This document shows, in pieces, positions 1-10,882 of a DNA stretch of 35,898 nucleotides. Within the stretch, counting starts at the first letter, position 1, and each line of letters begins with the position of its first letter. The DNA comes from Anaerolineae bacterium (GTDB taxonomy: Bacteria > Chloroflexota > Anaerolineae > UBA4142 > SHND01). The position numbers and the translations under genes are program-made. Under the pieces are notes generated by a model. The model ran no database searches. It had not been told where the DNA came from and saw only the letters and a list, made by a program, of their open reading frames with translations. Where the stretch lies: assembly GCA_022072245.1 (NCBI GenBank), contig JAJVIA010000018.1:61138-97035 (forward strand), given 5' to 3'.

Positions 1-339
1 TTTTGCGTCAAATACACTTATACCGGCACCACTGCGGAAGAATTGAGCTCGTTTAGCGGCAAAGCCAAAGCCAAACAGATCAATCTCAAGTGGACAAGCG
101 CGAACGAATTCAATACAAGCGGTTTCAACGTCTGGCGCAAATTCGGCAAAGCGGGTTGGAAACAAGTGAACGCCGATTTCATTAACGCGCAGACGCCGGG
201 ACAGCAAAACAGCCATCAGTACAGTTATACCGATACGGTCAAAAAGCTTGGCAAGACGTATAGATACAAGCTCGAGGTCGTGCGTACGGATGGTTCAAGC
301 AGCTGGAGCGACGTCGTTCGCGTCAAAACATCCAAATAA
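1..339 (+). CDS. C-terminal fragment of a secreted protein with a fibronectin-III-like domain
   Basis: The reading frame is open from the first base and ends at TAA 337-339, so the start lies outside the window; the TTG at 43 is only an internal codon. The visible 112 residues form a beta-rich module with alternating aromatic residues, including FNVWRK, YSYTDT and YRYKLEVV, and a WSDVVRV ending. This is the pattern of the fibronectin-type-III-like modules at the C-termini of secreted Chloroflexota and Bacteroidota proteins. A related module ends the C25 peptidase downstream, so both may belong to one extracellular programme. Such modules usually act as adhesion or spacer domains. No catalytic part can be seen, and the function of the full protein is unknown. 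Confidence 0.7.
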   Translation, partial: FCVKYTYTGTTAEELSSFSGKAKAKQINLKWTSANEFNTSGFNVWRKFGKAGWKQVNADFINAQTPGQQNSHQYSYTDTVKKLGKTYRYKLEVVRTDGSSSWSDVVRVKTSK

Positions 340-567: not shown

Positions 568-1038
568 ATGTCAGATTTATACCCCACCGCGCGCCGCGAT
601 AAATTGGTCGTCGAAAACTTGAAAAATGAGGTTTTGATTTACGACCTGGAGCGCGACCAGGCAAATTGTTTGAACGAAACGGCGGCGCTGGTTTGGCAAT
701 ACGCCGACGGCAAAACGAGCGTCAGCGGAATCGCGGACAAGCTGTCGCAAAAATTCGGCATGCTCGTGGATGTGCGCGTGGTCTGGTACGCGCTCGACCA
801 ACTGGGCAAAAAGAATTTGTTGCAAGAACGCGTAGCGATTCCGTACCAATACAATCGCATGACGCGCCGCGACTTTTTGGTCAAGGCGGGGATTGTGGGC
901 GCGGCGGTTGCGATTCCGGTGGTGATTGCCATGACCGCGCCGACTCCGGCAATGGCAAGCACGTGCGTAGGCACTTGCGCTGTTGACACCGATTGCGCTG
1001 TCGGTTGCAGGTGTGTTAGTCTCAACTGCGCCGTGTAG
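568..1038 (+). CDS. PqqD-domain protein with internal Tat signal and six-cysteine C-terminal peptide
   Basis: The ATG at 568 is chosen because AAAGAGGAGG lies just upstream; the protein has 156 residues. Residues about 5-90 read as a PqqD/RRE-type winged-helix domain (LYDLERDQANCLNETAALVW-like core), which in RiPP pathways binds leader peptides. Residues 99-107 are TRRDFLVKA, a near-consensus twin-arginine motif, followed by a hydrophobic stretch and an AMA site at 128-130. Cleavage there would release residues 131-156. That tail holds Cys133, 137, 143, 147, 149 and 154, spaced C-x3-C-x5-C-x3-C-x-C-x4-C, close to squash-type inhibitor knottins. The sequence thus suggests a cytoplasmic recognition domain fused to an exported, cysteine-rich peptide. 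No radical SAM or other maturase is visible in the window. It could alternatively be a membrane-anchored PqqD-like protein without peptide release. The neighbouring C25 peptidase is a possible protease or target. The domain call is fairly sure; the peptide role is inference. Confidence 0.75.
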   Translation: MSDLYPTARRDKLVVENLKNEVLIYDLERDQANCLNETAALVWQYADGKTSVSGIADKLSQKFGMLVDVRVVWYALDQLGKKNLLQERVAIPYQYNRMTRRDFLVKAGIVGAAVAIPVVIAMTAPTPAMASTCVGTCAVDTDCAVGCRCVSLNCAV

Positions 1039-1127: not shown

Positions 1128-1162
1128 AAGCGAGTCAAGCGTCGGCTGGACTCGCTTTTTTT
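1128..1162 (+). terminator. Rho-independent terminator after the PqqD-domain gene
   Basis: AAGCGAGTC at 1128-1136 pairs with GACTCGCTT at 1149-1157, with a 12-nt loop. A run of seven T occupies 1156-1162. It lies 90 bases after the stop at 1038 and separates this gene from the C25 peptidase. The rest of 1039-1279 shows no convincing gene. Confidence 0.7.
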
Positions 1163-1279: not shown

Positions 1280-4200
1280 ATGAGATATGGGTTAGGATTT
1301 GGAGTAATCGTATTATTATTGCTCGGTTTGGGTTCGGGCATCTCGGCGCCTTTGCAAGCGGCGCAAACCCCGCCGCCGGGGCAGGTCACGCTGATCGAAT
1401 CCAACGCCCAGCGCGTGGTTTTCGAGATTGCGGCGCCCGTATTGCAGCCGCAAGCGCGCACGGTTGACGGCGTTACGTTTACCGACCTCGTTGCGCCGAA
1501 TTGGGGCATGACCGACGCGCCGGGCAAACCGCGTTTGCCGGTGTATGGCGCGCTCGTCGCGATTCCACAAACCGCGCAGGTTACGATGCGGCTGGACGTT
1601 GACCGCACAAAAACTCAAATCTTGTCCGACCCTGTTTTGCCTGCGCCGCGCGGTCGCATCCGCGTCGACGCGCCGGACCAATTGCCGCAATTTGAAGGGC
1701 TCGATTATGCGCCGGATGCGGAAACCTACGCGCAAGCCGCGCTGTATCCCGCCGCGCCCGTTACGGTGGACGAACCCGCCATGTGGCGCAGTCAGCGCTA
1801 TGTCCGCGTTCAAGTTATGCCGTTTCAATACAATCCGCGTACGGGCGAATTGACGACGCATCGGCGGATGCGCGTGACGCTTGATTTTGGTCTCGCGCCC
1901 AACGCGCCGGAAGCCATGACCGGCAGCGCGGTGGACGAAGGCGCTTTTGAAGCGATTCTCAAACAAGGGCTGTTCAATTACGATAGCGCGCGTGGTTGGC
2001 GTGCGCCACAGCGCGTCGCGCCCAATTTGCCGCGCGCCGAAGCGGCTGCGTCCGCGACCGACGCTTTTCGCATCGCGGTGAGCGCCGACGGCATGTACCG
2101 GGTGACGTGCGACGCGCTCCAAGCCGCCGGTTTCGATGTCAACAATGTGAATCTGGATAACGTGCATGTAACGTTCGCGGGCGGCGAGATTGCCATTGAC
2201 GTGTTAGAGGATGGCGACAAAAAATGCGAGACCGGCGAAGCCCTCGTGTTCTGGGGCAAGGCGGCAACGGACACGAACGTGCCTTTTAACGTCTATTGGC
2301 TTGGCGCGGATAATACGCCCGGTTTGCGGATGAGCGCGCGCAGCGTTACGGGCAATACGACGCCGCCGACCTATCCCAAGACGCTCCACCTTGAAGAAAA
2401 TAATACGTACTCTACATATATGCCGTGGGCAGAGAATGTGGATCATTGGTTTTGGAAAATAATCAATCATCCCAGCATTTCGCCTGAAGTTACGGCGGAC
2501 TTGGGCGATTTGGCGCCGGGCGTGACGGATGGCGCGCTGCGCGTCCAATTGTATTCGGGCGGTTATGCCAATCCGTATGCGGCGTTGAATTCAACCGTCT
2601 ATGTCAACGGCGTCCAAGTCAGTCAACAGAACTGGCTTTCGGGTCAGATTTTGGACCACAATGTGGCGGTCAATAATCTTGTCGCGGGCGTCAACACGTT
2701 TCGTATCCAAGATATACAATGGGGGACGACGCCGTCGTTTGTGGCGTTAAATTATTTGGAGGTGGATTATCCGGCAGTTTTCCGGGCGGTGACGGATACG
2801 CTCCAATTCAAATTCGGCGACGCGGGCAGTTGGCAATATCAGATTCCCGGATTCACCAATGCCGATGTAGCGGCGTATGACATTACAAACCCGGCGAATG
2901 TCGCCAAACTTGATGTGACGACGGCGCCGAACGGCAATACGTTCACCGCGAGTTTTGGCGACGACGTGAACGCGCTGCATCAATATCTTGTTCTCACGGG
3001 CGCGCAATTCAAGACGCCGCTCAGTATTACGCTCGATACGCCCTCTGCTTTACGCAATCCGTCGAATGGCGCGGATTACATTCTGATCACATACGGCGCG
3101 TGGAAAAATAAATTGCAGCCGCTGGTGAATCAACGCGCCACCATGGGCCGCGTAATGGTCGTGGATGTACAGGATATTTATGACGAGTTTAGCGCTGGGA
3201 TGCAGACGGCGCAAGCCATTCGTGATTTTCTCGCCTATGCGTACGCCAATTGGCAGACGCCCAAACCATCGTATGTTTTATTGGTCGGCAGCGGCAATTT
3301 TGACAAAGGCGGCGGCGAACCGAGTTATATTCCCGTTTATATGAAATTGGCGGACCCGTGGATTGGCATGGTGGCGAGCGATAACGCGTTCGTGACATTG
3401 GACCAAAACAGTCCGCTGCCGAGCATCGCCATCGGGCGTTTGCCCGCGCTGTCCGCCGCCGATGTGACAAACATGGTCAACAAACTTGTGGGCTATGAAA
3501 CGTCCGCTCCCGGCGGCGCGTGGCGCAAAAATGTGATGTTTGTCGCGGACAATGCGTATGAAGCGAACGGCGCGCTGGACGCGGCGGGAAACTTTTTTGC
3601 CTATTCGGAAGAGGTCGCGGGAAGCAGCTATTATCTGCCCACGCCGATGGTCGCCAATCGCATTTACTATAATCCTTGCGTCAATGTCGCCCAGTATCCC
3701 TGGTGCGATATTTCCGCGTACGCCGCGCCCTATCCGACTCTGAATAGCGTTCGGACCGCAATCTTGAACGGTATGAATAGCGGACAGTTGATTGTCAATT
3801 ATGTCGGTCACGGTTCCATTTCGATTTGGACGGGCAGCATTCTCAAAAGCGCCGACGCGTCTTTAATCGCTCCCGCCAATAATAAATATCCGTTTATGAT
3901 GCCCATGACGTGCCTGGAAGGATATTTTCAAGGCGGCAATCAGGATGGGCTCAGCGAAGCGTTGGTCAAACAAAAGGACGGCGGCGCGATTGGCAGTTTT
4001 GCGCCCTCTGGTTTGGGCGTTTCGTCCGGGCACGATTATCTCGACCGCGGTTTCTTTGAAGCGCTGATGCAAGGCGGCAAACCGCGCGCCGGACAGGCGA
4101 CGGTTGCGGCAAAAGTAAAATTGTATGCCGAAAGCGGCGGCAATCATTTTGATTTGCTCGACACGTACAATTTGCTTGGCGACCCCGGCATGTTGTTTGC

Positions 4201-4684
4201 CTTGCCGGACAGTATCATGCCTCCGCCGACGAACACGCCCACATTCACGCCGACAAATACGCCGACGAACACACCCACATTCACGCCGACGAATACGCCG
4301 ACGAATACGCCGACCAGCGCTCCCTCTTTCACGCCGACCATTACGCCGGAGGCATCCGAGACGCCGACCAGTACGCCGACGTCTGGCGCGTGCAGCGTCA
4401 AGCCGGCTAAACCGGAATTGATTGCGCCTCCAAACCAAGCGCGCGGATTAAGGCAGCGCGTGCAATTGCAGTGGACTGCCGGCGCGTGCGTGACCAAATA
4501 TAAAGTTGTGGTCAGACAGGGCAGCCAGACCGGACAATTGGCGGACCGCAAGGTTATACGTGACGGCGCAACCTCCTATCTAACCGACCCGTTAGCGCGC
4601 AATCAAACCTATGCGTGGCGCGTCAAGGCGTGCAATGCCAACGGCTGCAAGTGGAGCGCGTGGCGCACTTTTCAAATCAGATAA
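1280..4684 (+). CDS. Secreted gingipain-like C25 cysteine peptidase with Thr/Pro linker and C-terminal FN3-like domain
   Basis: A 1134-residue exported protein. An N-terminal signal peptide (residues 1-28) precedes a propeptide-like region with the C25 N-terminal look (PGKPRLPVYGALVAIP). The peptidase core has DYILITYGAW near residue 600 and PSYVLLVGSGNFD near 670. The catalytic dyad is visible as His844 in VGHGS and Cys878 in MTCLEGYF, 34 residues apart, close to the gingipain spacing. Residues 981-1036 are a Thr/Pro linker of repeated NTPT/FTPT words. The last about 97 residues form a fibronectin-like module with CNANGC and WSAWRTF. The family cleaves proteins outside the cell, often after Arg or Lys; specificity cannot be read here. 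No type IX sorting domain is evident, and the linker resembles Chloroflexota cell-surface stalks. The ATG at 1280 has only a weak Shine-Dalgarno. Confidence 0.9.
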   Translation: MRYGLGFGVIVLLLLGLGSGISAPLQAAQTPPPGQVTLIESNAQRVVFEIAAPVLQPQARTVDGVTFTDLVAPNWGMTDAPGKPRLPVYGALVAIPQTAQVTMRLDVDRTKTQILSDPVLPAPRGRIRVDAPDQLPQFEGLDYAPDAETYAQAALYPAAPVTVDEPAMWRSQRYVRVQVMPFQYNPRTGELTTHRRMRVTLDFGLAPNAPEAMTGSAVDEGAFEAILKQGLFNYDSARGWRAPQRVAPNLPRAEAAASATDAFRIAVSADGMYRVTCDALQAAGFDVNNVNLDNVHVTFAGGEIAIDVLEDGDKKCETGEALVFWGKAATDTNVPFNVYWLGADNTPGLRMSARSVTGNTTPPTYPKTLHLEENNTYSTYMPWAENVDHWFWKIINHPSISPEVTADLGDLAPGVTDGALRVQLYSGGYANPYAALNSTVYVNGVQVSQQNWLSGQILDHNVAVNNLVAGVNTFRIQDIQWGTTPSFVALNYLEVDYPAVFRAVTDTLQFKFGDAGSWQYQIPGFTNADVAAYDITNPANVAKLDVTTAPNGNTFTASFGDDVNALHQYLVLTGAQFKTPLSITLDTPSALRNPSNGADYILITYGAWKNKLQPLVNQRATMGRVMVVDVQDIYDEFSAGMQTAQAIRDFLAYAYANWQTPKPSYVLLVGSGNFDKGGGEPSYIPVYMKLADPWIGMVASDNAFVTLDQNSPLPSIAIGRLPALSAADVTNMVNKLVGYETSAPGGAWRKNVMFVADNAYEANGALDAAGNFFAYSEEVAGSSYYLPTPMVANRIYYNPCVNVAQYPWCDISAYAAPYPTLNSVRTAILNGMNSGQLIVNYVGHGSISIWTGSILKSADASLIAPANNKYPFMMPMTCLEGYFQGGNQDGLSEALVKQKDGGAIGSFAPSGLGVSSGHDYLDRGFFEALMQGGKPRAGQATVAAKVKLYAESGGNHFDLLDTYNLLGDPGMLFALPDSIMPPPTNTPTFTPTNTPTNTPTFTPTNTPTNTPTSAPSFTPTITPEASETPTSTPTSGACSVKPAKPELIAPPNQARGLRQRVQLQWTAGACVTKYKVVVRQGSQTGQLADRKVIRDGATSYLTDPLARNQTYAWRVKACNANGCKWSAWRTFQIR

Positions 4685-8676: not shown

Positions 8677-9624
8677 TTACTTGCCCGTATTCTGCAAAAA
8701 GTTAAACACGTTTTTCGTGATGCGGGTAGAACTGTTCATGCTCCACTTGCCGCCGACGCCGTAGGTGTGAATGCCGAACGCGCACGGGTTGCAGCTATTG
8801 TTCCATTTGCCATAATGCGGCGAACCGCTTTGCCCGCCGAACGTGTCGATCTGATAAAAGAGGCGCGTCTTTTGGACCTGCTTGATTCTACCCTTCATCG
8901 TCCACATGGTGCCATAGCTCTTGTCGCCGGGATAGCCGCGGACATTCGAATTGCGATTCAACAGGAATGAATCGTCACTGGTCCAGCCATAGCCGAACCA
9001 ACCGACGGTATTGCCCACATCCGAACCGAGCTTGATTAGACCGTAATCATATTTGGTTTTGCCGGAATTGATCCAGCCATTGACTGTGTACCAATTGGTA
9101 GCCGCAAATACGCCAAAGGGCGCGGTACCGCCATTGCGACCGGGATAAACGGTGATGGACGTTGCCCATTCGTTCATGCTGGGATCATATACGCAATGGC
9201 CTGCGGTCGCCAACCGATTCGCGTCAATGAACCAGCCGGTGCATGTCCCGGAACCGGAAGGAAAATCTACTTCGAGCTGCGCGATGGCGCTGTTGGGATA
9301 CGCGTTGGTATTGGTAACTTGGGTGCGTCCATCGGGACCAATGACGCTCTCGGGATTGACCGCGCCGAGCGGTTTCAAATTTTTGCTGCCGACGCTTTCG
9401 TTGACGAGCGCTTCTGGCGCGATGACGGGTTTGTAAGAGGTTGAAAGCAGTTTGCCTGAGGCAGGCGTTTGAAAAACAGCGCCGTCGTTGCGTACGACGA
9501 GATACGGGTCTGGTCCTTGGGCGTGAGTGATGGCGGCGGGCGCGGCGAGGCCAAGGATTGCCAAAAGCAAAGCGCCAAGCAAAAGCCAGCGCGCGAGCGG
9601 ATTAAAGGTTCGAGAGTGTGACAT
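8677..9624 (-). CDS. Secreted trypsin/V8-like serine endopeptidase (paralogue 1)
   Basis: A 315-residue exported protease. The start at 9624 is preferred over 9642 because GGAGA lies 10 bases upstream. A signal peptide ends near residue 35 (THAQG). The triad is visible as His143 in ATAGHC, Asp193 in KYDYGLI and Ser266 in GGQSGSP. This is the V8/glutamyl-endopeptidase branch of chymotrypsin-like proteases. A propeptide-like stretch of about 60 residues, ending around ESVIGPDGRTQV, separates signal and catalytic domain and is conserved in the second copy. Cys pairs (CTGWF/AGHC and CNPC) suggest disulfides. It lies next to its paralogue in tandem. The cleavage specificity is not certain: V8 enzymes prefer Glu. 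Confidence 0.9.
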   Translation of the reverse strand: MSHSRTFNPLARWLLLGALLLAILGLAAPAAITHAQGPDPYLVVRNDGAVFQTPASGKLLSTSYKPVIAPEALVNESVGSKNLKPLGAVNPESVIGPDGRTQVTNTNAYPNSAIAQLEVDFPSGSGTCTGWFIDANRLATAGHCVYDPSMNEWATSITVYPGRNGGTAPFGVFAATNWYTVNGWINSGKTKYDYGLIKLGSDVGNTVGWFGYGWTSDDSFLLNRNSNVRGYPGDKSYGTMWTMKGRIKQVQKTRLFYQIDTFGGQSGSPHYGKWNNSCNPCAFGIHTYGVGGKWSMNSSTRITKNVFNFLQNTGK

Positions 9625-9753
9625 GATTTTTCGTGTCTCCATTGGGTTCTTGTACTGGTTGGGTAACGTGGTGAAACGCGTCGTAAGGCGTTCGATTAAA
9701 ATGGTTGGGTAAAAACTTTTCGACGACCTCCTTTCAAAGGGCGAGAAATAAAT

Positions 9754-10737
9754 TTAGGGCGCGGCGGCGGATTGCATAAAGTTAAAAACCGGTTTGGTGA
9801 TGCGCGTGGCGCTATTCATGTCCCAATTGCCGCCGACGCCGTAGGTGTGAATGCCGAACGCGCACGGGTCACAATCTTTACGCACCCATCTGCCAAAGAG
9901 GGGCGAACCGCTTTGGCCGCCAAATGTGTCAATGGTATAAAACAGCCGCCGTTTGTGCGCTTTGGCAATCGTCCCCGCCATCTGCCATTGCGTATATGCT
10001 TCGGCATTGTGCTTGTCGCCGGGATAGCCGCTCACCGTGACCGGTTTGCCGATAAAAAATGGACTGCGCGAATTGTACTCGTAACCGAAATAGCCGACGG
10101 TATCCCCGATGGGACTCGCCAATTTTATCACGCCGTAATCATGGCGCGGGCCATGGGTGTCAATCCATTTTTGGCGCACGTTCCAATTTAAACCCGCTAC
10201 GCTGCCGAATGGCGCCAGCGTGCCATCGCGGCCGGGATACGCCATGACGTTTTGCGCCCAACCGCCCAAGCCGGAATAATACAAACAGTGCGCCGCCGTT
10301 GCAACCGTATCGGGGCCAATCATCCAACCGCTGCACAAGACCGAGCCATATGGAAAATCTATTTCGAGCTCGACAATCGCGCTGTACGGAAAAACGGTCG
10401 TATCGCCAACGCGCGTCCGACCGTCCGCGCCAATGACGCTTTCGGGCGAAGGGGCTGAGGTCACAATGATGGAATTGGGCAGCGCGTTAAACTGCAAGAG
10501 CTGGCGCGTCGGAACGGTTTGGTTGACGAGTTGACGCGGGTCAATGGTTACGCTTTTGGAGGGCGAATAGGTCCGCGGCGAATTTTTAATCTCGAACGCG
10601 CGGCCATCGTTCCGCACAATTTTATCGCCGCGAATCGGCTCTTGGGCAAAGGTATGGGGCGCGGCGACGGCGCTCAGAGCAATCAGAAAAACAATGCCGA
10701 TAAATTTTAACAGATTGGAGAAATGGGAAATCACCAC
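9754..10737 (-). CDS. Secreted trypsin/V8-like serine endopeptidase (paralogue 2)
   Basis: A second copy of the same architecture: signal peptide (LLKFIGIVFLIALSAVAAP), propeptide with ESVIGADGRTRV, then catalytic motifs ATAAHC, HDYGVIKL and GGQSGSP. The C-terminal stretch CDPCAFGIHTYGVGG is nearly identical to paralogue 1. The annotated start is a GTG at 10737, chosen because it gives a normal signal peptide and has AAAGG upstream; an ATG at 10776 and a TTG at 10797 would add a charged extension. An extended -10 element sits about 175 bases upstream on the minus strand, inside a direct repeat. Divergence outside the catalytic core suggests an old tandem duplication. The likely role is extracellular protein breakdown or processing of surface proteins. 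Confidence 0.87.
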   Translation of the reverse strand: MVISHFSNLLKFIGIVFLIALSAVAAPHTFAQEPIRGDKIVRNDGRAFEIKNSPRTYSPSKSVTIDPRQLVNQTVPTRQLLQFNALPNSIIVTSAPSPESVIGADGRTRVGDTTVFPYSAIVELEIDFPYGSVLCSGWMIGPDTVATAAHCLYYSGLGGWAQNVMAYPGRDGTLAPFGSVAGLNWNVRQKWIDTHGPRHDYGVIKLASPIGDTVGYFGYEYNSRSPFFIGKPVTVSGYPGDKHNAEAYTQWQMAGTIAKAHKRRLFYTIDTFGGQSGSPLFGRWVRKDCDPCAFGIHTYGVGGNWDMNSATRITKPVFNFMQSAAAP

Positions 10738-10882
10738 ACGAAACCTTTCATTGAATTGAACTGCCCGCGCTGTCATGACGCGGCGACGGTTCGGCAAATT
10801 TATAATTTGTCCGACCGCGGCGTACCACGAGGGCGTGAAATGGGATTATGCTGCCAAGAGCTCTACGCAAAAATTGCGCGCG

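Follow-up and report, generated by a model that had tools for sequence, protein, structure and literature searches.

Recognition elements (RREs) of ribosomally synthesized and post-translationally modified peptides (RiPPs) are known as discrete proteins or as parts of modifying enzymes (PMC7470986). Lasso peptides are tailored by homologues of HPr kinase and by nucleotidyltransferases, with phosphorylation of the C-terminal Ser and addition of hexose (PMC9266682, PMC8498205), and a His-Lys-Asp-Asp motif has been reported for these tailoring kinases (PMC9266682). We analysed a stretch of 35,898 nucleotides from an Anaerolineae bacterium (contig JAJVIA010000018.1, positions 61,138 to 97,035), which as a whole is called the window below, and in it a gene whose product joins a PqqD/RRE-fold domain, an internal twin-arginine translocation (Tat) signal and a six-Cys tail. 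On balance, we lean towards reading this gene as the precursor of a Tat-exported, disulfide-rich mini-protein, a bacterial squash-type knottin, with the recognition domain in its leader and a kinase acting in trans; this assessment is based on sequence comparison and structure models. A first prediction, made from the DNA letters alone, had named no described system with such a layout, and none turned up in the open-licence full-text literature on bacterial knottins, Tat-exported RiPPs and PqqD-Tat proteins. The family is apparently undescribed.

The precursor protein and its predicted fold

The open reading frame (window 568-1038, + strand) runs from an ATG at 568 to a TAG at 1036-1038 and translates into a protein of 156 amino acids. 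Its 130-residue leader ends in AMA at residues 128-130 and is followed by a 26-residue tail with six Cys in the order C-x3-C-x5-C-x3-C-x-C-x4-C (spacing 3-5-3-1-4), exactly as the original prediction had it. The proposed PqqD/RRE-like domain was recovered by PF05402 over residues 22-64 (E=1.1e-6; 29.2 bits, cut-off 23.4), and the internal twin-arginine motif by TIGR01409 over residues 99-118 (21.6 bits, cut-off 16.7). The features of a Tat substrate are present in the sequence, namely the twin arginine, a hydrophobic stretch and AxA, together with Tat machinery in the genome; R100 and R101 are invariant in 21/21 aligned family proteins, and TatC was found in 7/7 genomes searched. In the window's genus, the TatC gene (G000:C20:25628-26509, where G000 is the window's own genome, and in the other five genomes) gives a two-piece match in one open frame, which suggests an insertion of about 35 residues.

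The full-length AlphaFold model (21 sequences) has a mean predicted local distance difference test score (pLDDT) of 87.1, with 90-97 in the PqqD part, 66-70 in the signal and 79-87 in the tail. The PqqD part displays the element order of an RRE, with strands at residues 13-18, 21-26 and 31-35 followed by helices at 37-45, 52-63 and 69-81. When the full model was submitted to Foldseek, the N-terminal part retrieved TbiB1 (the best match), PqqD and FusB1 from the PDB, in agreement with the predicted RRE-like fold, and the tail retrieved MCTI-A. An hxxP-like stretch, VAIP, after the PqqD domain is suggestive at most.

In the full-length model the tail is a separate unit with a C-terminal hairpin, and the same hairpin is obtained when the tail is modelled alone (pLDDT 87-91). 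Foldseek matches of the tail are mostly cystine-knot peptides, led by the squash inhibitors; MCTI-A (1mct/1f2s) superimposes with a root-mean-square deviation of 0.4-0.7 A over 20-21 residues, and the search with the tail gave 0.6-0.7 A over 21 residues at a probability of 0.93. The models thus predict a squash-type knottin mini-domain, and a tail that forms part of the PqqD fold was ruled out because they place it apart. In sequence searches, squash family PF00299 is the sole Pfam match of the window tail and lies below the cut-off (11.7 vs 22 bits; the first loop is VGT), and a PDB search with the tail sequence alone returned weak knottin-like matches (E 0.18 and 2.1; 0.95 for a second tail). 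The tail of one relative (L028; such labels denote loci of the family) passes the Omega-toxin family PF06357 with 23.3 bits (cut-off 22) and matches omega-atracotoxin (E=5e-4).

Relatives and the diversity of their tails

About 30 relatives were found in the genus, in other families of the phylum and in one Gemmatimonas, the single relative from a contig scan, where one contig holds two tandem copies. Each of the 6/6 genomes of the genus carries one to five copies. In a draw of 400 genomes from the phylum the family occurs in at least eight at E<=1e-20, and the surroundings of the kinase described below added a ninth; since no more than ten candidates were scored in each genome at first, these counts are lower bounds. 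The closest copy in place is a paralogue about 1.1 kb upstream of the gene, just outside the window and about 1 kb ahead of it (G000:C2:60160-60576, also labelled L002 and L005, 18158-18652), which is 66% identical over residues 2-140 and ends in a different six-Cys tail, GLSCGQPCGDGGSGGCPRECPHCRNLPQGRVCTAV.

The tails fall into several kinds, and tail class broadly tracks the leader tree. Squash-like tails occur in the window, L005, L024, L025 and L037, with an eight-Cys version in L026; conotoxin/spider-like tails with CC in L027, L028 and L029; eight-Cys CC-x-C tails in L030 (twice), L032 and L033; and other Cys-rich tails in L035, L036, L073-L077 and L097. L031 has two Cys only, and no Cys is found in the tails of L034, L038, L078-L081 and L004. 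Among these, L079 (8424-9557), L080 (6690-7793), L081 (8469-9836), L034 and L038 carry TP repeats, collagen-like GAT repeats or Gly-rich domains on the PqqD-Tat leader.

The original prediction had suggested checking whether homologues with the same domain order keep the Cys spacing in tails of varying sequence. The alignments contain homologues that share the domain order, with conserved Cys and otherwise variable tails. In the window's clade, leader identity is 62-81% vs 6-47% at non-Cys tail positions; in the eight-Cys class the corresponding values are 51-72% and 15-31%. The two tandem eight-Cys precursors that one genome carries at L030 (9601-10677) share 72% of the leader and 16% of the non-Cys tail positions, and we read the pair as a duplication with fast tail change. 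Homologues without a Cys tail, which the original prediction had held to speak against it, exist outside the window's clade only and not within it. The Cys count is even in 22/23 Cys-bearing tails (P ~3e-6 against even odds, relatedness ignored), which suggests disulfides; chance occurrence of the Cys was ruled out by this parity and by Cys conservation within clades.

These tails also bear on a more mundane alternative, which we consider doubtful but give some weight: PqqD-Tat could be a generic surface-protein export module that carries many extracellular parts, its Cys tails being structural or adhesive stubs with no role as peptide effectors. That one leader also carries TP-repeat, collagen-like and Gly-rich cargo would fit this, but Cys scaffolds are kept within clades while the loops diverge, which implies selection for folded mini-domains. 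For the knottin precursor that we favour, the loops change fast and are neutral to acidic, which suggests that the peptide binds partners that change as well and is not a cationic, membrane-lytic one. In 27/31 members a Ser or Thr stands no more than three residues from the cut site (45% expected from tail composition). As a possible modification site this enrichment is only a lead, and signal-peptide borders are often Ser-rich.

A co-occurring kinase and the neighbouring genes

An HprK_rel_A-like P-loop kinase is encoded beside or close to the PqqD-Tat gene in L004, L035, L038, L073-L077, L079 and L097; in L078 and L081 the distance is at least 2 kb. The kinase-adjacent loci are those outside the genus plus two inside it. 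In four genomes (G000-G003) kinase and precursors are on separate contigs, and the surroundings of the kinase gene (G000:C22:11062-11868) contain no PqqD-Tat gene, so that the link between kinase and family is not mere adjacency. Within the phylum sample of 400, 9/9 kinase genomes carry the PqqD-Tat family (chance 6e-16 for 8/8 genomes, uncorrected for relatedness), and in a sample of the order the same 7/20 genomes hold both, while three further genomes of the order gave only weak matches to short, Tat-less PqqD proteins. This co-occurrence is the strongest functional clue that the sequences offer. Residues H112, K133, D150 and D156 of the kinase are invariant and match the His-Lys-Asp-Asp residues of the lasso-tailoring kinases. 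A PF14907 nucleotidyltransferase accompanies the kinase in L035, L038, L075, L077 and L079, and a sulfotransferase gene adjoins one relative. A lasso peptide cluster was rejected, since the transglutaminase-like B2 leader protease (PF13471) is absent from four genomes that hold the family (G000, G001, G002 and G003).

Strict co-occurrence with a kinase in trans could also be expected if the signal were left uncleaved and the protein were a membrane-anchored sensor, whose variable tail is the ectodomain and whose cytosolic PqqD domain signals to the HprK-like kinase. Such a role would agree with a cytosolic domain that precedes the signal, with the lack of AxA in two members and with the very diverse kinds of cargo. 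We nevertheless regard it as improbable: most members keep AxA at a constant distance from the RR, tails of 3-14 residues (L078, L004) would make poor ectodomains, and the tail loops have almost no common residues, unlike a receptor for a fixed ligand.

The original prediction left it open whether the folded peptide is disulfide-rich or thioether-bridged, and suggested looking for a radical SAM or flavin maturase near homologues. The first of these forms agrees with the Cys parity; the second is unsupported, as none of the radical SAM (PF04055) matches listed for six close genomes lies within 10 kb of a copy of the family. A radical-SAM-modified RiPP of the ranthipeptide or sactipeptide type would account for an RRE-fold domain and a Cys-rich core. 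Given this outcome and the even Cys number in 22/23 tails, we consider it most improbable, and in two loci thiol oxidoreductases stand beside the gene instead: in L074 (9111-10502, - strand) a thioredoxin-like domain (CGPC) is fused to an HprK-related kinase directly upstream of the Cys-rich PqqD-Tat gene, and L075 has a MauE-thioredoxin protein beside the precursor gene.

At the knottin-class loci the conserved neighbour is a secreted C25 protease gene, usually downstream. Among the nine strong C25 genes of the genus, six immediately follow a PqqD-Tat-Cys gene and one lies about 8 kb downstream of such a gene; of the remaining two, one is at a contig edge and one has no PqqD-Tat neighbour. 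The pair recurs in another family (G012), where the PqqD-Tat gene has the kinase upstream and the C25 gene downstream. Inhibitor genes are often found beside genes of bacterial secreted proteases, and the modelled tail fold resembles a trypsin inhibitor. The knottin might thus serve specifically to inhibit the C25 protease next to it. Other possible targets of such an inhibitor are two secreted trypsin-like serine proteases (PF00089), whose tandem genes (window 8677-9642 and 9754-10797, - strand) are 8-10 kb away. We consider this unlikely, because squash inhibitors have a six-residue first loop with a basic P1 instead of VGT, the tails vary in Cys number (4, 6, 8) while the C25 protein is well conserved, many copies have no C25 gene nearby, and a terminator separates the precursor and C25 genes.

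The features of the locus are listed in Table 1. The terminator, a strong one that closes the unit, was identified by folding, as it is outside the loop limit of the consensus scan. The promoter-like site is weak, with one site in 1 kb vs 0.7 expected by chance, and a GAGGAGG sequence precedes the precursor ATG by a few bases. At about 350-420 in the window, 5' of the precursor gene, there is an inverted repeat, CAAGACCCCAAGTGTTTT / AAAACACTTGGGGTCTTG; a similar one apparently accompanies the upstream paralogue, and the element may be an intergenic palindrome that occurs repeatedly. Just 3' of the C25 gene (4744-5165), a 131-nt direct repeat occurs in three copies at 98% or more.

Table 1. Coordinates of features at the precursor locus (window positions)
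Feature	Position	Strand	Evidence
Precursor gene: PqqD/RRE domain, internal Tat signal, six-Cys tail	568..1038	+	translation, PF05402, TIGR01409, alignment
PqqD/RRE-fold domain, residues 1-86	568..825	+	PF05402, AlphaFold model, TbiB1 5v1v match
Twin-arginine signal TRRDFLVKAG...APTPAMA, residues 99-130, predicted cleavage after A130	862..957	+	TIGR01409, alignment
Six-Cys knottin-like tail STCVGTCAVDTDCAVGCRCVSLNCAV, residues 131-156	958..1035	+	squash-inhibitor-like fold in AlphaFold model
Promoter-like (sigma-70-like) site TTGACA-16-CATAAT, ~84 nt before start codon	457..484	+	11/12 consensus positions
Intrinsic terminator, 9-bp stem + 7 T, between precursor and C25 genes	1128..1162	+	-19.1 kcal/mol, z -3.65
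3' end of secreted-protein gene (fn3-like by eye), between the two PqqD-Tat paralogues	1..339	+
Secreted C25 (gingipain-like) cysteine protease: propeptide, catalytic domain (GHG / TC motifs), TP-rich linker, fn3-like end	1280..4684	+

Proposed maturation and comparison with known systems

If the gene encodes the precursor of a Tat-exported knottin, the PqqD domain, as a covalent part of the substrate, would dock the precursor on the trans-acting HprK-like kinase, with a nucleotidyltransferase also involved in some relatives, and the kinase would tag it, perhaps on a Ser or Thr where the tail begins. Tat would then carry the C-terminal part across the membrane, where signal peptidase would cut after AMA and leave the PqqD domain in the cytosol. 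The released tail would be oxidised to three disulfides, paired 1-4, 2-5 and 3-6 if it is a knottin, with the help of MauE/thioredoxin-like proteins in some relatives, and the adjacent secreted C25 protease would trim the peptide or act as its partner. The HprK_rel_A-like kinase, the adjacent C25 protease, the non-knottin cargo and the upstream paralogue all go beyond the original prediction.

Several observations weigh against this interpretation. Owing to the small size of the peptide, no knottin match in Foldseek has an E-value better than 0.4, and a short Cys pattern may be forced by AlphaFold into a fold that is already known. The tail of L097 has an odd number of Cys, L029 and L035 have no clear AxA site, and some relatives are Cys-free, with TP or collagen-like repeats, with Gly-rich domains or with tails of only 3-22 residues, so that knottins are not the sole cargo of the PqqD-Tat module. 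At the window, L025 and L026, which have further neighbours in common, much of the C25 pairing falls within a larger conserved neighbourhood; part of this pairing is shared inheritance. The kinase-bearing genomes are few and partly related, and seven kinases score 43-59 bits against the cut-off of 200 for the HprK_rel_A equivalog (TIGR04352); by this score the partner kinase is related to HprK_rel_A, not a member.

The leader/core pattern is clear and a kinase co-occurs; the enzymatic modification that would make the product a RiPP is putative. More tentatively, the family may represent a new RiPP-like class, in which each precursor holds its recognition domain in cis and one unlinked kinase serves many dispersed, hypervariable, Tat-exported cystine-knot cores; equally tentative is the idea that such a class would be the bacterial counterpart of the venom knottin families. 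If true, the recognition element would sit in the substrate instead of the enzyme, and this would account for the ability of a single maturation enzyme to serve many unlinked precursors, which standard gene-cluster mining misses. Cystine knots of the squash and venom types would then also have a bacterial source, one that uses Tat export, with a bearing on the origin of cystine-knot folds and on their use as stable scaffolds.

Among the known systems, the RRE proteins TbiB1, FusB1 and PqqD resemble the family in the predicted fold of residues 1-86 (TbiB1 5v1v, probability 1.00, TMt 0.75; PqqD 5sxy, probability 0.97), but in this family the RRE belongs to the substrate itself and precedes an export signal. 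With the lasso tailoring enzymes (PadeK/ThcoK/PsmK and PsmN) the family shares the HprK-related P-loop kinase with its His-Lys-Asp-Asp residues, the PF14907 nucleotidyltransferase of five relatives and the sulfotransferase beside one; it differs in the absence of the B2 protease from G000-G003, in its Tat signal and in its Cys-rich core.

The methylamine dehydrogenase beta subunit is exported by Tat. According to work cited in PMC7794033, this disulfide-rich part is matured with MauE/MauD-type proteins, and MauE/MauD-like proteins also stand beside L074 and L075; the family has no sequence relation to the subunit and no evidence of a quinone cofactor. Squash trypsin inhibitors (PF00299; MCTI-A, EETI-II, MCoTI) are matched in the predicted fold, in the D-x-D-C motif and in the Cys spacing from the second Cys onward (x5-C-x3-C-x1-C), whereas the window tail is bacterial, has a first loop of three residues, not six, and has no basic P1. 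The inhibitor-cystine-knot peptides of spiders and cone snails (PF06357) are resembled by the sister tails L027 and L028 (C-x6-C-x5-CC-...-C-x4-C), a likeness that may be convergence; these tails are bacterial and sit on a PqqD-Tat leader, and the window tail belongs to the squash class.
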